From the NCBI RefSeq assembly GCF_023238445.1, contig NZ_CP096658.1, forward strand, positions 1,860,001-1,924,000: 64,000 nt of DNA. The letters run 5' to 3'. The notes beneath the pieces are model-generated. The model did not search any database and was not told where the DNA came from. It worked only from the letters and a program-made list of their open reading frames with translations. The position numbers and the translations under genes are program-made. Positions 41,859 to 52,789 of the stretch are shown in pieces. Numbering within the stretch: position 1 is the first letter of the stretch; each line of letters opens with the position of its first letter. The stretch is from Halorussus gelatinilyticus (GTDB lineage: Archaea; Halobacteriota; Halobacteria; Halobacteriales; Haladaptataceae).

Positions 41859-42490
41859 CCGGCCGACCGGCCGACTCCGACCTGCTGAACGAGGAGCGCG
41901 AGCGCTGGCTGGTCCGCCTGCTTCAGGCCGGACTGGCCGGTCTCGTCGTCTACGGGCTCTCCCGCGGCAAAACCGGGGTCGCGGTCAACGCGGCCGTCTC
42001 GCTGGGGGTCACGTTCGTCCCTGCGGTCCTGCGCCGGGACGCGGGCATCTCGCTGGACGTGAGCTACGTCCTCTGGATTTCGACCGCGGTGTTCGTCCAC
42101 GCGGCCGGATTTCTCGGTCCCTACCGGAACGTGCCGTGGTACGACTCGGTCGCCCACGCCCTCTCCGCGTCCATCGTCGCGGGCGCTGGCTACGCGACGG
42201 TCAAGGCCATCGACCGCGAGTCCGACCGGACGACGCTCCCGAGCGAACTCCAGTTCGCGTTCATCCTCGTGTTCGTCATGGCGTTCCGCGTCCTCTGGGA
42301 GATACTGGAGTTCGGGACCGAGCAACTCGCCGCCACGCTCGGCGGGAAGGCCCTGCTGGTCCAGTACGGACTGGACGACGTGATACTCGACCTCGTGTTC
42401 AATCAGGTCGGGGCGCTCGCCGTCGCCGCGTTCGACGTGGCTCGCCCCGAGAGGGCGGCCGAGGAGGCCGCCGAGGCGGTCGAGGACTGA
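41855..42490 (+). CDS. Membrane protein, DUF2238/YjdF-like
   Basis: 211 aa, with about six helices. A central pair of motifs, WYDSVAHALSASIVAGAGYA and AFRVLWEILEFGTEQL, has the His and Glu residues spaced as in DUF2238 (YjdF-like) proteins, with a distal DVILDLVFNQVGALAV helix. The family is of unknown function. It overlaps the preceding gene by four bases (ATGA). An acidic Ala-rich tail (ERAAEEAAEAVED) ends the protein. It is followed by two direct GTGACCGACTGCGG repeats in the short downstream gap. Confidence 0.65.
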   Translation: MTGRPADSDLLNEERERWLVRLLQAGLAGLVVYGLSRGKTGVAVNAAVSLGVTFVPAVLRRDAGISLDVSYVLWISTAVFVHAAGFLGPYRNVPWYDSVAHALSASIVAGAGYATVKAIDRESDRTTLPSELQFAFILVFVMAFRVLWEILEFGTEQLAATLGGKALLVQYGLDDVILDLVFNQVGALAVAAFDVARPERAAEEAAEAVED

Positions 42491-42608
42491 AGGCGGTGAC
42501 CGACTGCGGGGAGTGACCGACTGCGGACGGTCGGCCGGGTGACGACCGCCGGCCCGCCCGACCGAAACGGACGACTAACTTATCCGCGCGAGTCACGTAT
42601 CGCGGGCC

Positions 42609-46515: not shown

Positions 46516-46596
46516 TTTGTGTCGTCGGGCGTCTGCCGGTGGTCTGCGCCGTCGGTCGTTTGCCCGTGGTCTGTGTCGTCGGGCGTTCGTCGGTGG
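46516..46596. repeat. Three 27-bp tandem repeats
   Basis: Units at 46516-46542, 46543-46569 and 46570-46596 share the frame TCTGTGTCGTCGGGCGT followed by TGCCGGTGG, with a few substitutions. Since 27 is a multiple of three, open frames on both strands show nine-residue repeats (for example RPTTQTTGK on the minus strand), but no start or gene-like context exists. Confidence 0.7.
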
Positions 46597-46665
46597 TCCT
46601 CGCAGGGTCTGACCTTCGACTCGAAACCCGGCTTTTGATAACCTGTGACACCTTACGACCGGGCG

Positions 46666-48195
46666 ATGTCAAGCGAAGCCGCCGACGAGGCGTCCGAGAC
46701 GTACTCGGAGTTCATCGACAGGGTAGAGCGACTGACGAACCTCGGGCACGCCGGGGGCGTCCTCGGTTGGGACCAAGAGGTCATGATGCCCGAGGGCGGC
46801 ACGCCCGCCCGCTCGAAGCAGCGCTCGGCGATCTCGACCGTGACCCACGAACTGCTCACCTCCGACGAGATGGCCGCGGCGCTGGACGACCTCGAAGCCG
46901 GCGAGCTGTCCGACGAGCGAGCGTCGGTCGTCCGCGAGGTCCGGCGCCAACACGACCGGGCCGCGAGCGTGCCGCAGGACCTCGTGGAGGAGATTTCCGA
47001 GGTCTCGTCGGAGGCGATGCCGGTCTGGCAGGAGGCCAAGGAGGAGGACGACTTCTCGAAGTTCGCGCCGACGCTCGAACGACTGGTCGAACTCAAGCGC
47101 GAGTACGCCGAACACATCGACCCCGACCGGGACCCCTACGAAGTCCTCTTCGAGGAGTACGAGCCGTATCTCGGCGTGGACACCGCCGAGCGCGTCCTCG
47201 AACGACTCCGCGAGGAACTGGTCCCGCTCGTCGAGGCGGTCCGGGAGTCCGACGCCGACCTCGCCACCGACACCTTCGAGGGTGAGTTCGACACCGACAC
47301 CCAAGAGGACCTCGCGCGCGACGTGCTGGACACGCTGGGCTACGACTGGGACCACGGCCGTCTGGACACCGCGCCCCACCCCTTCTCGTCGGGCAACCAG
47401 TTCGACGCCCGCGTCACCACGCGCTTCTCGCCCGACGAACCGCTCGGCGCGCTGATGGCGACGGTCCACGAGTTCGGCCACGCGACCTACACCCTCGGTC
47501 TCCCCCGCGAGGAGTACGGCACGCCGCTGGGCAAGTCGCGGGACATGACCGTCCACGAGTCCCAGTCGCGCCTCTGGGAGAACCACGTCGGGCGCTCGCG
47601 AGCGTTCTGGGAGCGCTTCCTGCCGAAGGTGAAAGAGCGGTTCCCCGAGAAGCTGTCCGACGCCAGCGTGGACGACGTGTACGAGGCCGCAAACGAGGTC
47701 TACGAGGACAACCTCATCCGGGTCGAGGCGGACGAACTCACCTACCACATGCACATCATCGTCCGGTTCGAAATCGAGCGCGACCTGATTCGTGGCGACC
47801 TCGACGTCGAGGACGTGCCCGAGGTCTGGAACGACAAGTACGAGGAGTATCTGGGCATCCGCCCAGACTCCGACGCCGAGGGCTGTCTCCAGGACATCCA
47901 CTGGAGCCACGGCGACTTCGGTTACTTCCCGACCTACTCGCTCGGGAGCGTGCTGGCGACCCAACTGTACGCCAGCGCCGAGGAGGACATCGAGAATATC
48001 GACGAGAAGGTTGCGGAAGGCGACTTCGACCCGCTCCACGACTGGCTGACCGAGAACGTCCACCGGCACGGCTGTCGGTACACCACCGACGAACTGATTC
48101 GGCAGGCGACCGGCGAGGACTACACCGCCGACTACTTCCTCGACTACGTGAAGTCGAAGTACGGCGAGCTGTACGAACTGGACGACTACCAGTAA
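46666..48195 (+). CDS. Carboxypeptidase M32 (Taq-type), paralogue 1
   Basis: 509 aa from the ATG at 46666. It is a cytoplasmic zinc carboxypeptidase with the active-site motif HEFGH in ATVHEFGHATYTLGL, the conserved ESQSRLWENHVGRS segment, and the later EADELTYHMHIIVRFEIER and HGCRYTTDELI motifs of M32 enzymes. N-terminal MPEGGTPARSKQ is characteristic of the family. A closely related copy lies 560 bp downstream (about 60 percent identity by eye); a broken gene lies between them. Confidence 0.95.
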   Translation: MSSEAADEASETYSEFIDRVERLTNLGHAGGVLGWDQEVMMPEGGTPARSKQRSAISTVTHELLTSDEMAAALDDLEAGELSDERASVVREVRRQHDRAASVPQDLVEEISEVSSEAMPVWQEAKEEDDFSKFAPTLERLVELKREYAEHIDPDRDPYEVLFEEYEPYLGVDTAERVLERLREELVPLVEAVRESDADLATDTFEGEFDTDTQEDLARDVLDTLGYDWDHGRLDTAPHPFSSGNQFDARVTTRFSPDEPLGALMATVHEFGHATYTLGLPREEYGTPLGKSRDMTVHESQSRLWENHVGRSRAFWERFLPKVKERFPEKLSDASVDDVYEAANEVYEDNLIRVEADELTYHMHIIVRFEIERDLIRGDLDVEDVPEVWNDKYEEYLGIRPDSDAEGCLQDIHWSHGDFGYFPTYSLGSVLATQLYASAEEDIENIDEKVAEGDFDPLHDWLTENVHRHGCRYTTDELIRQATGEDYTADYFLDYVKSKYGELYELDDYQ

Positions 48196-48200
48196 CTCGC

Positions 48201-48660
48201 TCAGTTCCCGTCTAACGCCTTCTTCACTTCTTCTGCCGTCGAGCGCTTCGTGGTGTTGAACAGGAACTCGCCGCTCCACCCGCCCGACGCCATCGCGTCG
48301 GCCAGTCCCGGTGCAATCGTCGCCTCGTAGAGCATCTCGCCCTCGAAGTACGTCCGGATGGGATGAGCGTCGCGGTTCTCGAACGCGCCGACCCGTTCGA
48401 ACCGTCGGCGAACGCCGCGGTCCCCGCGTCGGTCAGTTCGATGGCCAACCGGTAACTGCCGCCTCTGGCCTGCTCGACCTCACCGACGGAGGCCACGTCC
48501 GCGCCGGTGACGAGTTCCACCTCGCGGTCGCCGTCCGCGACCACGATTCGGAACGCGTCGGGCGACGCGGCGCTCGTTTCCGCCGCGGTCGCCGTGGTCG
48601 CGGTAGCGTCGTCTGTAGTCGCGTTCTCGGGAGTCGCCTCGGCGTCGGCAGTCGGGCGCT
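48201..48660 (-). pseudogene. Broken gene: SecD P1-head-like domain protein, frameshift and lost start
   Basis: In one frame the sequence reads FRIVVADGDREVELVTG, ASVGEVEQARGGSYRLAIELTD and AGTAAFADG. A one-base gap near 48411 then shifts the frame; the next frame reads ERVGAFENRDAHPIRTYFEGE, MLYEATIAPGLADAMASGG and FLFNTTKRSTAEEVKKALDGN before a stop at 48201-48203. The joined pattern resembles the SecDF P1 head domain found in haloarchaeal lipoprotein-like proteins. Upstream, a Thr/Ala-rich linker follows an in-frame TAG near 48660, so the signal peptide and start are also lost. Likely a decaying accessory gene between two M32 genes. Confidence 0.75.
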
Positions 48661-48756
48661 AACGCACTCTGGGCCGCACGTCCGTTCCCTGCTGACGAAC
48701 TCCACGCCCTTCGCCGCCACCCACATTTTGATACGTCGGGGAATCGAGACGACGGT

Positions 48757-50238
48757 ATGGCCGACGCGTACGACGACTTACTCGACCGATACCGGCGAAT
48801 CACCGCGCTACAGGACGGCGGCGGCGTCCTCTACTGGGACCAACAGGTGATGATGCCCGAGGGCGGCACGCCCGCTCGCTCGAAGCAACTCTCGGCGCTC
48901 TCGGGAGTCACCCACGAGCAACTGACCGCCGACGAGACCGGGCGACTGCTCGACGCCGCCGAGGACGAGGAGCTATCCGACGAGCAGTCGGCGGCCGTCC
49001 GCGAGATTCGCCGCGAGTACGACCGGGCGACGAAGGTGCCCGAGGAACTGGTCGAGGAACACACCCGTCTCCAGTCGGAGGCCCAAGACGACTGGCGCGA
49101 GGCGAAGGCCAACGACGACTTCTCGGCGTTCGAGCCGATTCTCTCGGACCTGCTCGACCTCCGCGTCGAGAAGGCCCAGCACATCGACCCCGACCGCGAC
49201 CCCTACGAAGTCATGTTCGAGGACCGCGAGCCGTACCTCGAACTCGACACGGTAGAGCGCATCTTCGACGAACTGAAGGACGGACTCGTCCCGCTCATCG
49301 AGGACATCCGAGCCAGCGAGGGGATTCCGGACACCTTCGAGGGCGAGTTCGACACCGACGCCCAAGAGGCCCTCTCGCGCGACGTGCTGGACCTGCTGGA
49401 CTACGACTGGGACCGCGGCCGCCTCGACACCTCGGCCCACCCGTTCATGTCGGGCACGCAGTTCGACGCCCGCATCACGACCCGATTCGACGAGACCGAC
49501 CTGCTGGGCGCGGTCAGTTCGACCGTCCACGAGTTCGGCCACGCGACCTACGCGCTCGGACTCAGCGACGACGCCTACGGCACGCCGCTCGGCGAGTCGC
49601 GCTCCAGCGGCGTCCACGAGTCCCAGTCGCGCTTCTGGGAGAACCACGTCGGCCGGACGAAGGAGTTCTGGGAACTCGTCCTGCCGACCGTGAAAGACCG
49701 CTTCCCGCAGGTCTCGGACGTGACGCCCGAGCAGGCCTACCGGACCGCCAACCGCATCGAGTCGGACAACCTGATTCGGACCGAGGCCGACGAACTCACC
49801 TACCACATGCACATCATCCTCCGGTCGGAGATAGAGCGCGAGTTCGTCAGCGGCGACCTCGCGGTGAGCGAGATTCCGGCCGCGTGGAACGACAAGATGG
49901 AGGAGTACCTCGGAATCCGGCCCGACACCGACGCGGAGGGCTGTCTCCAGGACATCCACTGGACCGGCGGGTTCGCCAGCTTCCAGAACTACACGGTCGG
50001 GAGCGTCCTCGCGGCCCAGCTCTGGGCGACCATCGAAGAAGAACTGGACGACCCCCGCGGTCTCATCGCCGAGGGCGACTTCCGGCCCATCCGCGACTGG
50101 CTGACCGAGAACGTCCACCGGCACGGCTGTCGGTACACCACCGACGAACTGATTCGGCGGGCGACCGGCGAGGACCTGACCGCCGACTACTTCCTCGACT
50201 ACGCCGAGGAGAAGTTCGGCGAGATTTACGACCTGTAG
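48757..50238 (+). CDS. Carboxypeptidase M32 (Taq-type), paralogue 2
   Basis: 493 aa. It carries the same motifs as the upstream paralogue: MPEGGTPARSKQL, HEFGH in SSTVHEFGHATYALGL, ESQSRFWENHVGRTKEFWE, EADELTYHMHIILRSEIEREF and HGCRYTTDELIRRATGED. It is shorter by about 16 residues, mainly at the N terminus and at the C-terminal DDYQ. The two copies are tandem and in the same direction, so a gene duplication is likely, with divergence throughout rather than a recent copy. Confidence 0.95.
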   Translation: MADAYDDLLDRYRRITALQDGGGVLYWDQQVMMPEGGTPARSKQLSALSGVTHEQLTADETGRLLDAAEDEELSDEQSAAVREIRREYDRATKVPEELVEEHTRLQSEAQDDWREAKANDDFSAFEPILSDLLDLRVEKAQHIDPDRDPYEVMFEDREPYLELDTVERIFDELKDGLVPLIEDIRASEGIPDTFEGEFDTDAQEALSRDVLDLLDYDWDRGRLDTSAHPFMSGTQFDARITTRFDETDLLGAVSSTVHEFGHATYALGLSDDAYGTPLGESRSSGVHESQSRFWENHVGRTKEFWELVLPTVKDRFPQVSDVTPEQAYRTANRIESDNLIRTEADELTYHMHIILRSEIEREFVSGDLAVSEIPAAWNDKMEEYLGIRPDTDAEGCLQDIHWTGGFASFQNYTVGSVLAAQLWATIEEELDDPRGLIAEGDFRPIRDWLTENVHRHGCRYTTDELIRRATGEDLTADYFLDYAEEKFGEIYDL

Positions 50239-50391
50239 CGCTTCTGCTGTCGGCGACTCGGCCGCGGCCGAGTCGCCGACCGTCCGATGGCGTCCGTCGG
50301 GGAAAGAAACGAGTATCGTTCAGCAGCGACTCTCGTGGCGTCGTTCCGCTCGAAAAAGAATCGGTCGGCAACCGTTCCGGCGACGACTCGC

Positions 50392-51004: not shown

Positions 51005-51550
51005 ATGCGTCACCACTCCGCCAGCGACGCCGAGCGCGAACCCGAACCGGACTCCGACTCCCCGCCAACCGCGAGGCCGCGCGCCCGACAGGTCCGCGAC
51101 GGGGCGGTCGGCGGACTCGTCGCCACGCTGGTCATGACAGCGTATCGACTCCCCATCTCGCGGTCGCTCCCGCCGACCGCGCGCCTCTGGGCGCTCTACG
51201 TCGCGGGCGGCGACGAGGACGACCACCCCGTTCCGGCCGTCGTCCTCCACCTGCTCTACGGAACCGTCGCGGGCGCGCTCTTCGGCGCGGCGGGCGCGCT
51301 CCTCGGTGGCGACCCGACTCCGACGGCCGACGACGACGCGGAGGCCCGCCGCGAGGAGGTCGGCCTGTTGGCGGGCGTCGGCTACGCCCTCGCGCTGTCG
51401 TGGTTCGGCGAACGCGTACTCCTCCGGCGACTCCTCGGGATGGACCCCGACCGCGACGAGTCGCTGGTGTTCCACGTCGGCCACGTCATCTACGGGTTGA
51501 CCCTCGGGACGTGGATCGGGTCGCGCGTCAGCCATCCCGAGGATGGCTGA
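51005..51550 (+). CDS. Hypothetical membrane protein
   Basis: 181 aa. A hydrophilic, acidic N terminus (about 35 residues) is followed by four hydrophobic segments (VGGLVATLVMTAYRLPI, AVVLHLLYGTVAGALFGAAGALLG, EVGLLAGVGYALALSWFGE and VGHVIYGLTLGTWIGSRV). The pattern of a Gly-Ala-rich helix pair recalls small membrane proteins in halophiles; I do not recognise a family. The stop codon lies inside the first hairpin of the array at 51527. Confidence 0.7.
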   Translation: MRHHSASDAEREPEPDSDSPPTARPRARQVRDGAVGGLVATLVMTAYRLPISRSLPPTARLWALYVAGGDEDDHPVPAVVLHLLYGTVAGALFGAAGALLGGDPTPTADDDAEARREEVGLLAGVGYALALSWFGERVLLRRLLGMDPDRDESLVFHVGHVIYGLTLGTWIGSRVSHPEDG

Positions 51551-51675
51551 CGGGTTACCGGAAATAGGGTCACGAGCCAGTCACGAGACGCGTGACTGAA
51601 CGTGAGCGGAAGTAGGGTCACACGTCAGTCGATTTTCGAGCGACTGACTCGTGACCGGAAGTAGAGTCACGAAGC
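51527..51675. repeat. Array of three different hairpins with a conserved linker
   Basis: Hairpin 1: GTCAGCCATCC (51527-51537) pairs perfectly with 51541-51551 around a CGA loop. Hairpin 2: CAGTCACG-AGACG-CGTGACTG begins near 51578. Hairpin 3: GTCAGTCG and CGACTGAC around a nine-base loop, near 51624. The linker CCGGAA(A/G)TAGGGTCAC begins at 51558, 51606 and 51655 with little change. The period is 48-49 bp. Hairpin 1 covers the stop codon of the preceding gene. Confidence 0.8.
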
Positions 51676-51703
51676 GGCGACCGATAGAAAGTATATCAGG
51701 AAC

Positions 51704-52789
51704 GTGCCCGTAGCGCCCGACGTGTCACCGAGCGATACGCTTCCGAGCGTCGAGGGACCGCTGGCGGCCGACCGCCTCGCGGAGGCGGTCGGGGACGCCC
51801 TGCCGGACGCCGACTTGCGCGAGGCGACGCCCATCGAGGCAGGCAAGAACGCGGCGTATCGCCTCGTCGTCGCGAGCGATGGTGACGAACGCGAACTCGT
51901 CCTGAAGGTCGGCGACGGCGAGTTCGCCGGCGGGTACCGCGCCGAACCGCGCGTGCTGTCGGCGGTCGGCGAGCGCACCGCGATTCCGGTCCCCGAGGTC
52001 GTCGGCACCGGCGCGTTCGGCGACGACCCGTACTTCCTCGCCGAGCGCGTCCCCGGCGCGAACCCGGCCTGCGACCCCGAATCGCTCCCGCCCGAGGCCT
52101 TCGAGCGCGTCTGCGCCGCGGCGGGCCGCAACCTCGCCGCGCTTCACGACGCCTTCCCGGCGGGCGACTGCGACCTGATTCCCGCCGACGGGTGGGGCAT
52201 GCTCGCGTTCGATTCCGGGGCCGACGCGCTCCACTTCGCCCGCGAGTTCCCCGACTGGTCGACCTATTTCGAGGCGTGGCTGACCCGCAACGTCGAGCGA
52301 CTCGCGGACACTCGGTTCGACGACCTGCGGCCCGCGCTCGCCGACCGCGCCGAGGAGTTCGCCGCAGACGTTCGGACGCTTGCTCCCTTCGAGTCGGTCC
52401 TCACCCACGGCGACTACCGACTCGGAAATCTGCTGGTGGACCCCGAATCCGGCGCGACGAACGGCGTCGTGGACTGGGCGACCCCGACCGCCGCGCCGCC
52501 GACGTGGGAACTCGCCGTCACCGAGGCGATTCTGATAGACTGGCCCGCGCTGGACGACTCGCGGCAGGAGCGACTCCGGACCCGCCTCTACGAGGGGTAC
52601 CGCGAGGTGAACCCGGAACCGCTCGACGGCGAGGGCTTCGAGACCCACCGCCGTCGCTGTCGGTTCGGCGCGCGACTCCGCCTGATGGTCAACCTCGGCG
52701 AGGAGATGGCCGGACGCTCCGAGTCGGCGGTCGAGGCCCGCGCCCGAGAACACCGCGAGGCGCTGCGCGAGTTCGGGGTGGAGGCGTAG
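51704..52789 (+). CDS. Aminoglycoside-phosphotransferase-like kinase (APH fold)
   Basis: 361 aa from a GTG at 51704; a GTG at 51722 is possible. Kinase motifs: GKNAAYRLVVA and ELVLKVG (ATP-binding Lys), the catalytic loop LTHGDYRLGNLLVD (HGD-x4-N) and VVDWATPTAAPPTWEL. In the last, the usual acidic residue after the DW is replaced by Thr/Pro, unusual for the family. The APH fold phosphorylates many small metabolites; the substrate is unknown and antibiotic resistance should not be assumed. Confidence 0.85.
   Translation: MPVAPDVSPSDTLPSVEGPLAADRLAEAVGDALPDADLREATPIEAGKNAAYRLVVASDGDERELVLKVGDGEFAGGYRAEPRVLSAVGERTAIPVPEVVGTGAFGDDPYFLAERVPGANPACDPESLPPEAFERVCAAAGRNLAALHDAFPAGDCDLIPADGWGMLAFDSGADALHFAREFPDWSTYFEAWLTRNVERLADTRFDDLRPALADRAEEFAADVRTLAPFESVLTHGDYRLGNLLVDPESGATNGVVDWATPTAAPPTWELAVTEAILIDWPALDDSRQERLRTRLYEGYREVNPEPLDGEGFETHRRRCRFGARLRLMVNLGEEMAGRSESAVEARAREHREALREFGVEA

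Follow-up and report, generated by a model that had tools for sequence, protein, structure and literature searches.

The question raised by this locus, in the 64,000-nucleotide stretch of the Halorussus gelatinilyticus genome that was analysed (the window), is how a run of perfect hairpins joined by a nearly invariant linker came to lie over and beyond the stop codon of a membrane-protein gene, and whether function or the manner of copying has shaped it. The initial annotation described three perfect hairpins of unrelated sequence with stems of 11, 8 and 8 bp, alternating with a conserved 16-base linker at a period of 48-49 bp, the first of them covering the stop codon. The three hairpins are indeed present (Table 1), the two 8-bp stems being as described and the first stem being 12 bp rather than 11 bp long; the first covers the TGA at 51548-51550, and successive linker copies are 48 and 49 nt apart. 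That such an array should occur by chance is effectively excluded: the 185-bp region holds three such hairpins against a mean of 0.02 in shuffled versions, with none of 2000 dinucleotide shuffles containing two or more. Matches to the linker at up to 3 mismatches number 4 in the window, against 0.91 expected.

Table 1. Features of the hairpin array and its flanking genes, in window positions
Feature	Positions	Strand	Description
DUF6789-like membrane-protein gene	51005-51550	+	ORF; C-terminus GSRVSHPEDG*; 3' end is unit 1
Three head-to-tail units	51518-51663		49, 48 and 49 nt; the short degenerate candidate listed below comes next
Unit 1	51518-51566	+	49 nt; hairpin over the last codons and stop of the gene; spacer GGAAATA
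Perfect core, unit 1	51526-51552		12-bp stem
Unit 2	51567-51614	+	48 nt; spacer GGAAGTA; own frame GSRASHETRD*
Perfect core, unit 2	51578-51598		8-bp stem
Unit 3	51615-51663	+	49 nt; spacer GGAAGTA; own frame GSHVSRFSSD*
Perfect core, unit 3	51624-51648		8-bp stem
Linker copies (16 bases)	51558-51573, 51606-51621, 51655-51670		
Candidate fourth unit, degenerate	51664-51687	+	GAGTCACGAAGCGGCGACCGATAG; runs into the next promoter; suggested by its sequence and a weak fold
Putative APH promoter	51685-51698	+	TAGAAAGTATATCA; ~28 nt upstream of the in-frame GTG 51722; motif conserved in relatives with the gene pair
APH-family phosphotransferase ORF	51704-52789	+	Pfam PF01636, E 5.6e-24; start at GTG 51704 or in-frame GTG 51722

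The description of a conserved linker between unrelated hairpins, however, does not hold. Alignment extends over the whole length of the units, with every pairwise match within the window exceeding all of 5000 shuffles, and their arms share sequence: outer arms of the form GGTCRC…GYGACC extend the stem, with few mismatches, in all three units, and the unit alignment reveals a second common stem, GTCAG…CTGAC, inside the outer one. Since 6-7 nt of the 16-base linker belong to the left arm of the outer stem, its three copies resolve into stem sequence and a true spacer of only GGAARTA, and one unit comprises a long interrupted hairpin (~18 pairs) followed by a 7-nt spacer. The outer stem is GGTCAC/GTGACC in unit 3 and is partly decayed in unit 1, as are the arms of unit 2. 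The predicted RNA fold of the array has an energy of -75.9 kcal/mol (z = -6.75), and this fold itself is the evidence for two further roles that the initial annotation suggested, as a folded 3' UTR or as a series of protein-binding sites, either of which is conceivable.

Among 18 genomes of the genus, the array is found at the DUF6789-like locus in three related ones, namely that of the window and two others (G008 and G013), which are close and nearly equidistant, with 89.6, 89.1 and 87.4% identity over shared DNA. Searches with a gapped pattern and with a covariance model derived from seven units detected this array at no other locus in these 18 genomes; the weaker matches elsewhere in the genus proved to be single hairpins of other sequence rather than arrays of this unit. 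The search for the linker that the initial annotation had recommended gave no match at 0 mismatches elsewhere in the same genome, only 2-mismatch sites near the control count, and at 1 mismatch across the genus only scattered single sites outside the array locus. In G008, unit 2 is followed by an assembly gap with poly-C and poly-G, such that its array has at least two units; runs of at least 22 G occur in that genome at two places only (L016:2108-2191, at the array, and L131:1457-1529), both N-filled gaps with poly-C/poly-G, and a sequencing stop at strong hairpins would explain the gap. At the same locus in two relatives, unit length (26 versus 48-49 nt), sequence and possibly copy number vary, so that the chance decay named in the initial annotation as the refuting outcome does not apply. 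A search of the literature, which was not exhaustive, yielded no report of the array or of a palindrome excess in Halorussus.

At first sight, a tandem series of palindromes whose ends are conserved and whose centres vary resembles a mobile or dispersed element, such as a REP/BIME-like sequence, a MITE, an integron attC array or a CRISPR-like repeat. This identity is contradicted by the presence of a single locus in each array-bearing genome, and unit 1, moreover, is the coding end of the gene itself. The one plasmid match covers the gene alone and not the array, 2.9 million viral contigs contained no array and only 12 lone 15-mer matches, and an Rfam scan of the window gave no match above the gathering score and thus no known structured RNA family. 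Taken together, a mobile origin is very improbable.

The gene itself provides a more direct source. Its product scores just below the cut-off for Pfam DUF6789 (26.5 against 27.1 bits), and orthologues are found in 27 of the 40 relatives. Unit 1 is the real end of this gene, and all units open with GGG-TCR-C, the codons of its conserved C-terminal Gly-Ser-Arg (His in unit 3). Read in its own frame, unit 2 of G008 likewise gives GSRVSHGSRD*; the TGA common to the units is partly a consequence of the common CTGAC arm. The units of G013 are 26 nt long and identical at 19-20 of the 26 positions, a level reached in 0 of 50000 shuffles, with the first two reading GSRSSDGE* and GSRSSDRK*. A weak dyad, GTCGC…GYGAC, is already present in the array-free gene ends of two other genomes of the set, G011 and G002.

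We consider it rather probable that the array arose, in this lineage specifically, by tandem duplication of the 3' end of the DUF6789-like gene, which carried a seed quasi-palindrome that was subsequently perfected by template switching. The starting point would have been a coding end for Gly-Ser-Arg-x-Ser-Asp, of the form GGGTCGCGnnnAGYGAC…TAG, whose own sequence is weakly palindromic (GTCGC…GYGAC). Replication slippage in an ancestor of the three related Halorussus species might have copied this gene end and its stop codon head to tail, and each copy might then have been lengthened and perfected by quasi-palindrome correction, with one arm templating the other. As template switching would keep the dyad symmetry while the sequence drifts, the arms would be expected to covary and the loops to remain free. 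The sequence common to the units, their origin in the coding end, their confinement to one locus in three close genomes and the covariation are shown by the data, whereas the mutational steps and the lack of a dedicated function are what we infer. Of the three ideas put forward in the initial annotation, stepwise palindrome insertion comes closest, in that palindromes were formed; what was multiplied, however, is the 3' end of the gene in tandem rather than a series of different inserted palindromes.

The relationship of the array to the next gene bears on the two functional alternatives. In the window the array sits between the DUF6789-like gene and the TAGAAAGTATATCA motif. The DUF6789-like gene ends on the first triplet of this motif in three genomes (G007, G011 and G017), whereas in G016 its stop codon immediately precedes the motif; none of the four has the array. 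Conversely, G013 retains the array although no close APH homologue is present there, so that the array goes with the gene end and not with the APH promoter. The same distribution counts against a series of dyad sites (GGTCAC…GTGACC) bound by a protein that would control the next gene or organise the DNA. Such a role is suggested by the position of the repeated dyads directly upstream of the putative promoter and by the half-sites being the most conserved part of the unit, but the distance between half-sites shifts from 6 nt in G013 to ~29 nt in the window and in G008, making this explanation quite improbable.

The second functional alternative is a structured 3' UTR under selection, in which the hairpins would end or stabilise the transcript of the membrane-protein gene and insulate the promoter of the gene that follows, directly after the array. 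If transcribed, the array would form a structured 3' UTR in any case. The location behind the stop codon of one gene and ahead of the putative promoter of the next, the strong predicted fold, the covariation described below and an intervening sequence devoid of T-runs except for a TTTT in the loop of unit 3 are all consistent with selection, and a hairpin sequence tested in Haloferax volcanii caused termination of 59% of reporter transcripts (PMC7237163). Against it stand an outer stem of unit 1 and arms of unit 2 that have partly decayed in the window, the lack of an excess of G·U among the departures from pairing, and the fact that most orthologues, four of which share the next gene, lack the array. 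A dedicated 3' UTR device is an unlikely explanation, if one that deserves more than passing consideration.

The covariation of the arms requires particular attention. With the unit structure imposed, 93% of the cells are standard pairs, as against 24-46% in slid controls, and Watson-Crick pairs occupy 91 of the 101 cells, the departures being 3 G·T and 7 others with no wobble bias. Both sides change in 6 of the 18 pairs, and the covariation score of 0.196 (shuffled 0.094, with none of 500 shuffles reaching it) is derived from seven mutually related units, five of them long, using a model alignment made from the same units that were counted. The covariation is real, but it is not proof of RNA function because a single template switch during replication can give rise to hairpins and to compensatory changes (PMC8794818), and such cases are also reported from coding genes of yeast (PMC8604942). 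The lack of a G·U bias, together with the excess of long perfect hairpins described below, favours a mutational cause of the co-change here. Comparison of unit 2 between the window and G008 shows a kept stem and differing loops, a pattern that would also be expected under selection on the stem. With three genomes carrying the array, the direction of change could not be assigned for any single template switch at the locus, and some compensated pairs differ on both arms, implying that more than one event was needed.

The proposed correction of the duplicated gene end through template switching invites comparison with the occurrence of hairpins elsewhere in the genus, for which 64-80 kb of each genome served as a sample. 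Counting perfect stems of 12 bp or more that enclose loops of 3-8 nt gives 3 in the window, 3 in G008, 0 in G013, 11 in G012, 13 in G006, 1 in G004 and 2 in G017, and 0 in G021, which belongs to another genus, while control spacings of at least 33 nt give 0-1 such stems. Long perfect short-loop hairpins are thus over-represented in several genomes of the genus, the excess being modest in the window (3 versus 0-1 in controls) and absent from the G013 sample. At a threshold of 11 bp with the same loops, mostly of 3-4 nt, G012 (L146-L149) and G006 (L150-L153) each contain ~29 perfect hairpins per 80 kb; their sequences are unrelated, 40 of the 58 lie inside likely coding ORFs, and the longest stem in these samples reaches 27 bp (L146:9110-9166). 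One of them, a 15-bp perfect hairpin in a coding gene of G012 (L148:3484-3516), is imperfect in all 8 of the aligned genus orthologues, the palindrome having been completed by substitutions on both arms. With stems of 11-27 bp recurring about every 2.8 kb, mostly in coding sequence, in two genomes, we tentatively suggest, with some reserve, that the array may be one visible product of an unusually active hairpin-perfecting mutational process in Halorussus.

Several other repeats and hairpins were noted in the window and its relatives. Downstream of the array, the APH gene contains a perfect 11-bp hairpin with a 3-nt loop (51768-51792), the G008 version of which is imperfect and is accompanied by amino-acid differences. 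Two adjacent M32 carboxypeptidase genes (46645-50238) look like tandem duplicates, with ~75% identical DNA across the copies in relatives; just upstream of the first lies a 27-bp tandem repeat of 2.8 copies (46523-46598), and 11 nt past the stop of the second, between convergent genes, is a perfect 14-bp hairpin with a 4-nt loop (50249-50280), of which no alignable copy was found in G008 or G013. A second gene-end tandem in the window is a 17-bp repeat that starts at a stop codon (42485-42523; GAGGACTGA…). In G002, an independent 18-bp tandem repeat spans the stop of the DUF6789-like orthologue (L040, 1699-1760), a parallel that supports the proposed duplication of the gene end, and in G012 a 16-bp hairpin is followed by an 18-bp tandem repeat (L091, G012:C1:2678468; GCGCRYCACGTRTCCGCC-like), representing another combination of hairpin and tandem in the genus.

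On the whole, an array with the appearance of a device, combining a conserved linker, variable stems and covariation, can plausibly arise from tandem copying and palindrome correction at an ordinary gene end, which calls for caution in inferring a role as RNA from covariation alone. The abundance of long perfect hairpins in certain Halorussus genomes merits a separate study: if upheld genome-wide, it would allow replication template switching in archaea to be studied in a natural setting, and were the mutational interpretation of this excess correct, these species would be natural hypermutators for that process.

Among known systems, the hairpins generated by template switching or quasi-palindrome correction (PMC8794818, PMC8604942) are similar in their near-perfect arms, two-sided changes, altered loops and preservation of symmetry rather than of sequence, whereas the Halorussus palindromes stand head to tail and stem from the end of a gene, with no single switch event polarised. 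Gene-end minisatellites, that is tandem duplications across stop codons, share with the array a unit that spans the coding tail and the stop; the 18-bp units of G002, however, form no long hairpins, whereas every full unit of the array does. The hairpin-associated 3' ends of Haloferax volcanii (PMC7237163) are comparable in having hairpins near the 3' end of a gene, while the Halorussus structure comprises three tandem hairpins and is confined to three close species. REP/BIME elements, finally, are likewise clustered intergenic palindromes capable of forming hairpins, but the Halorussus array, rather than being dispersed, occupies one locus and is derived from the adjacent gene.
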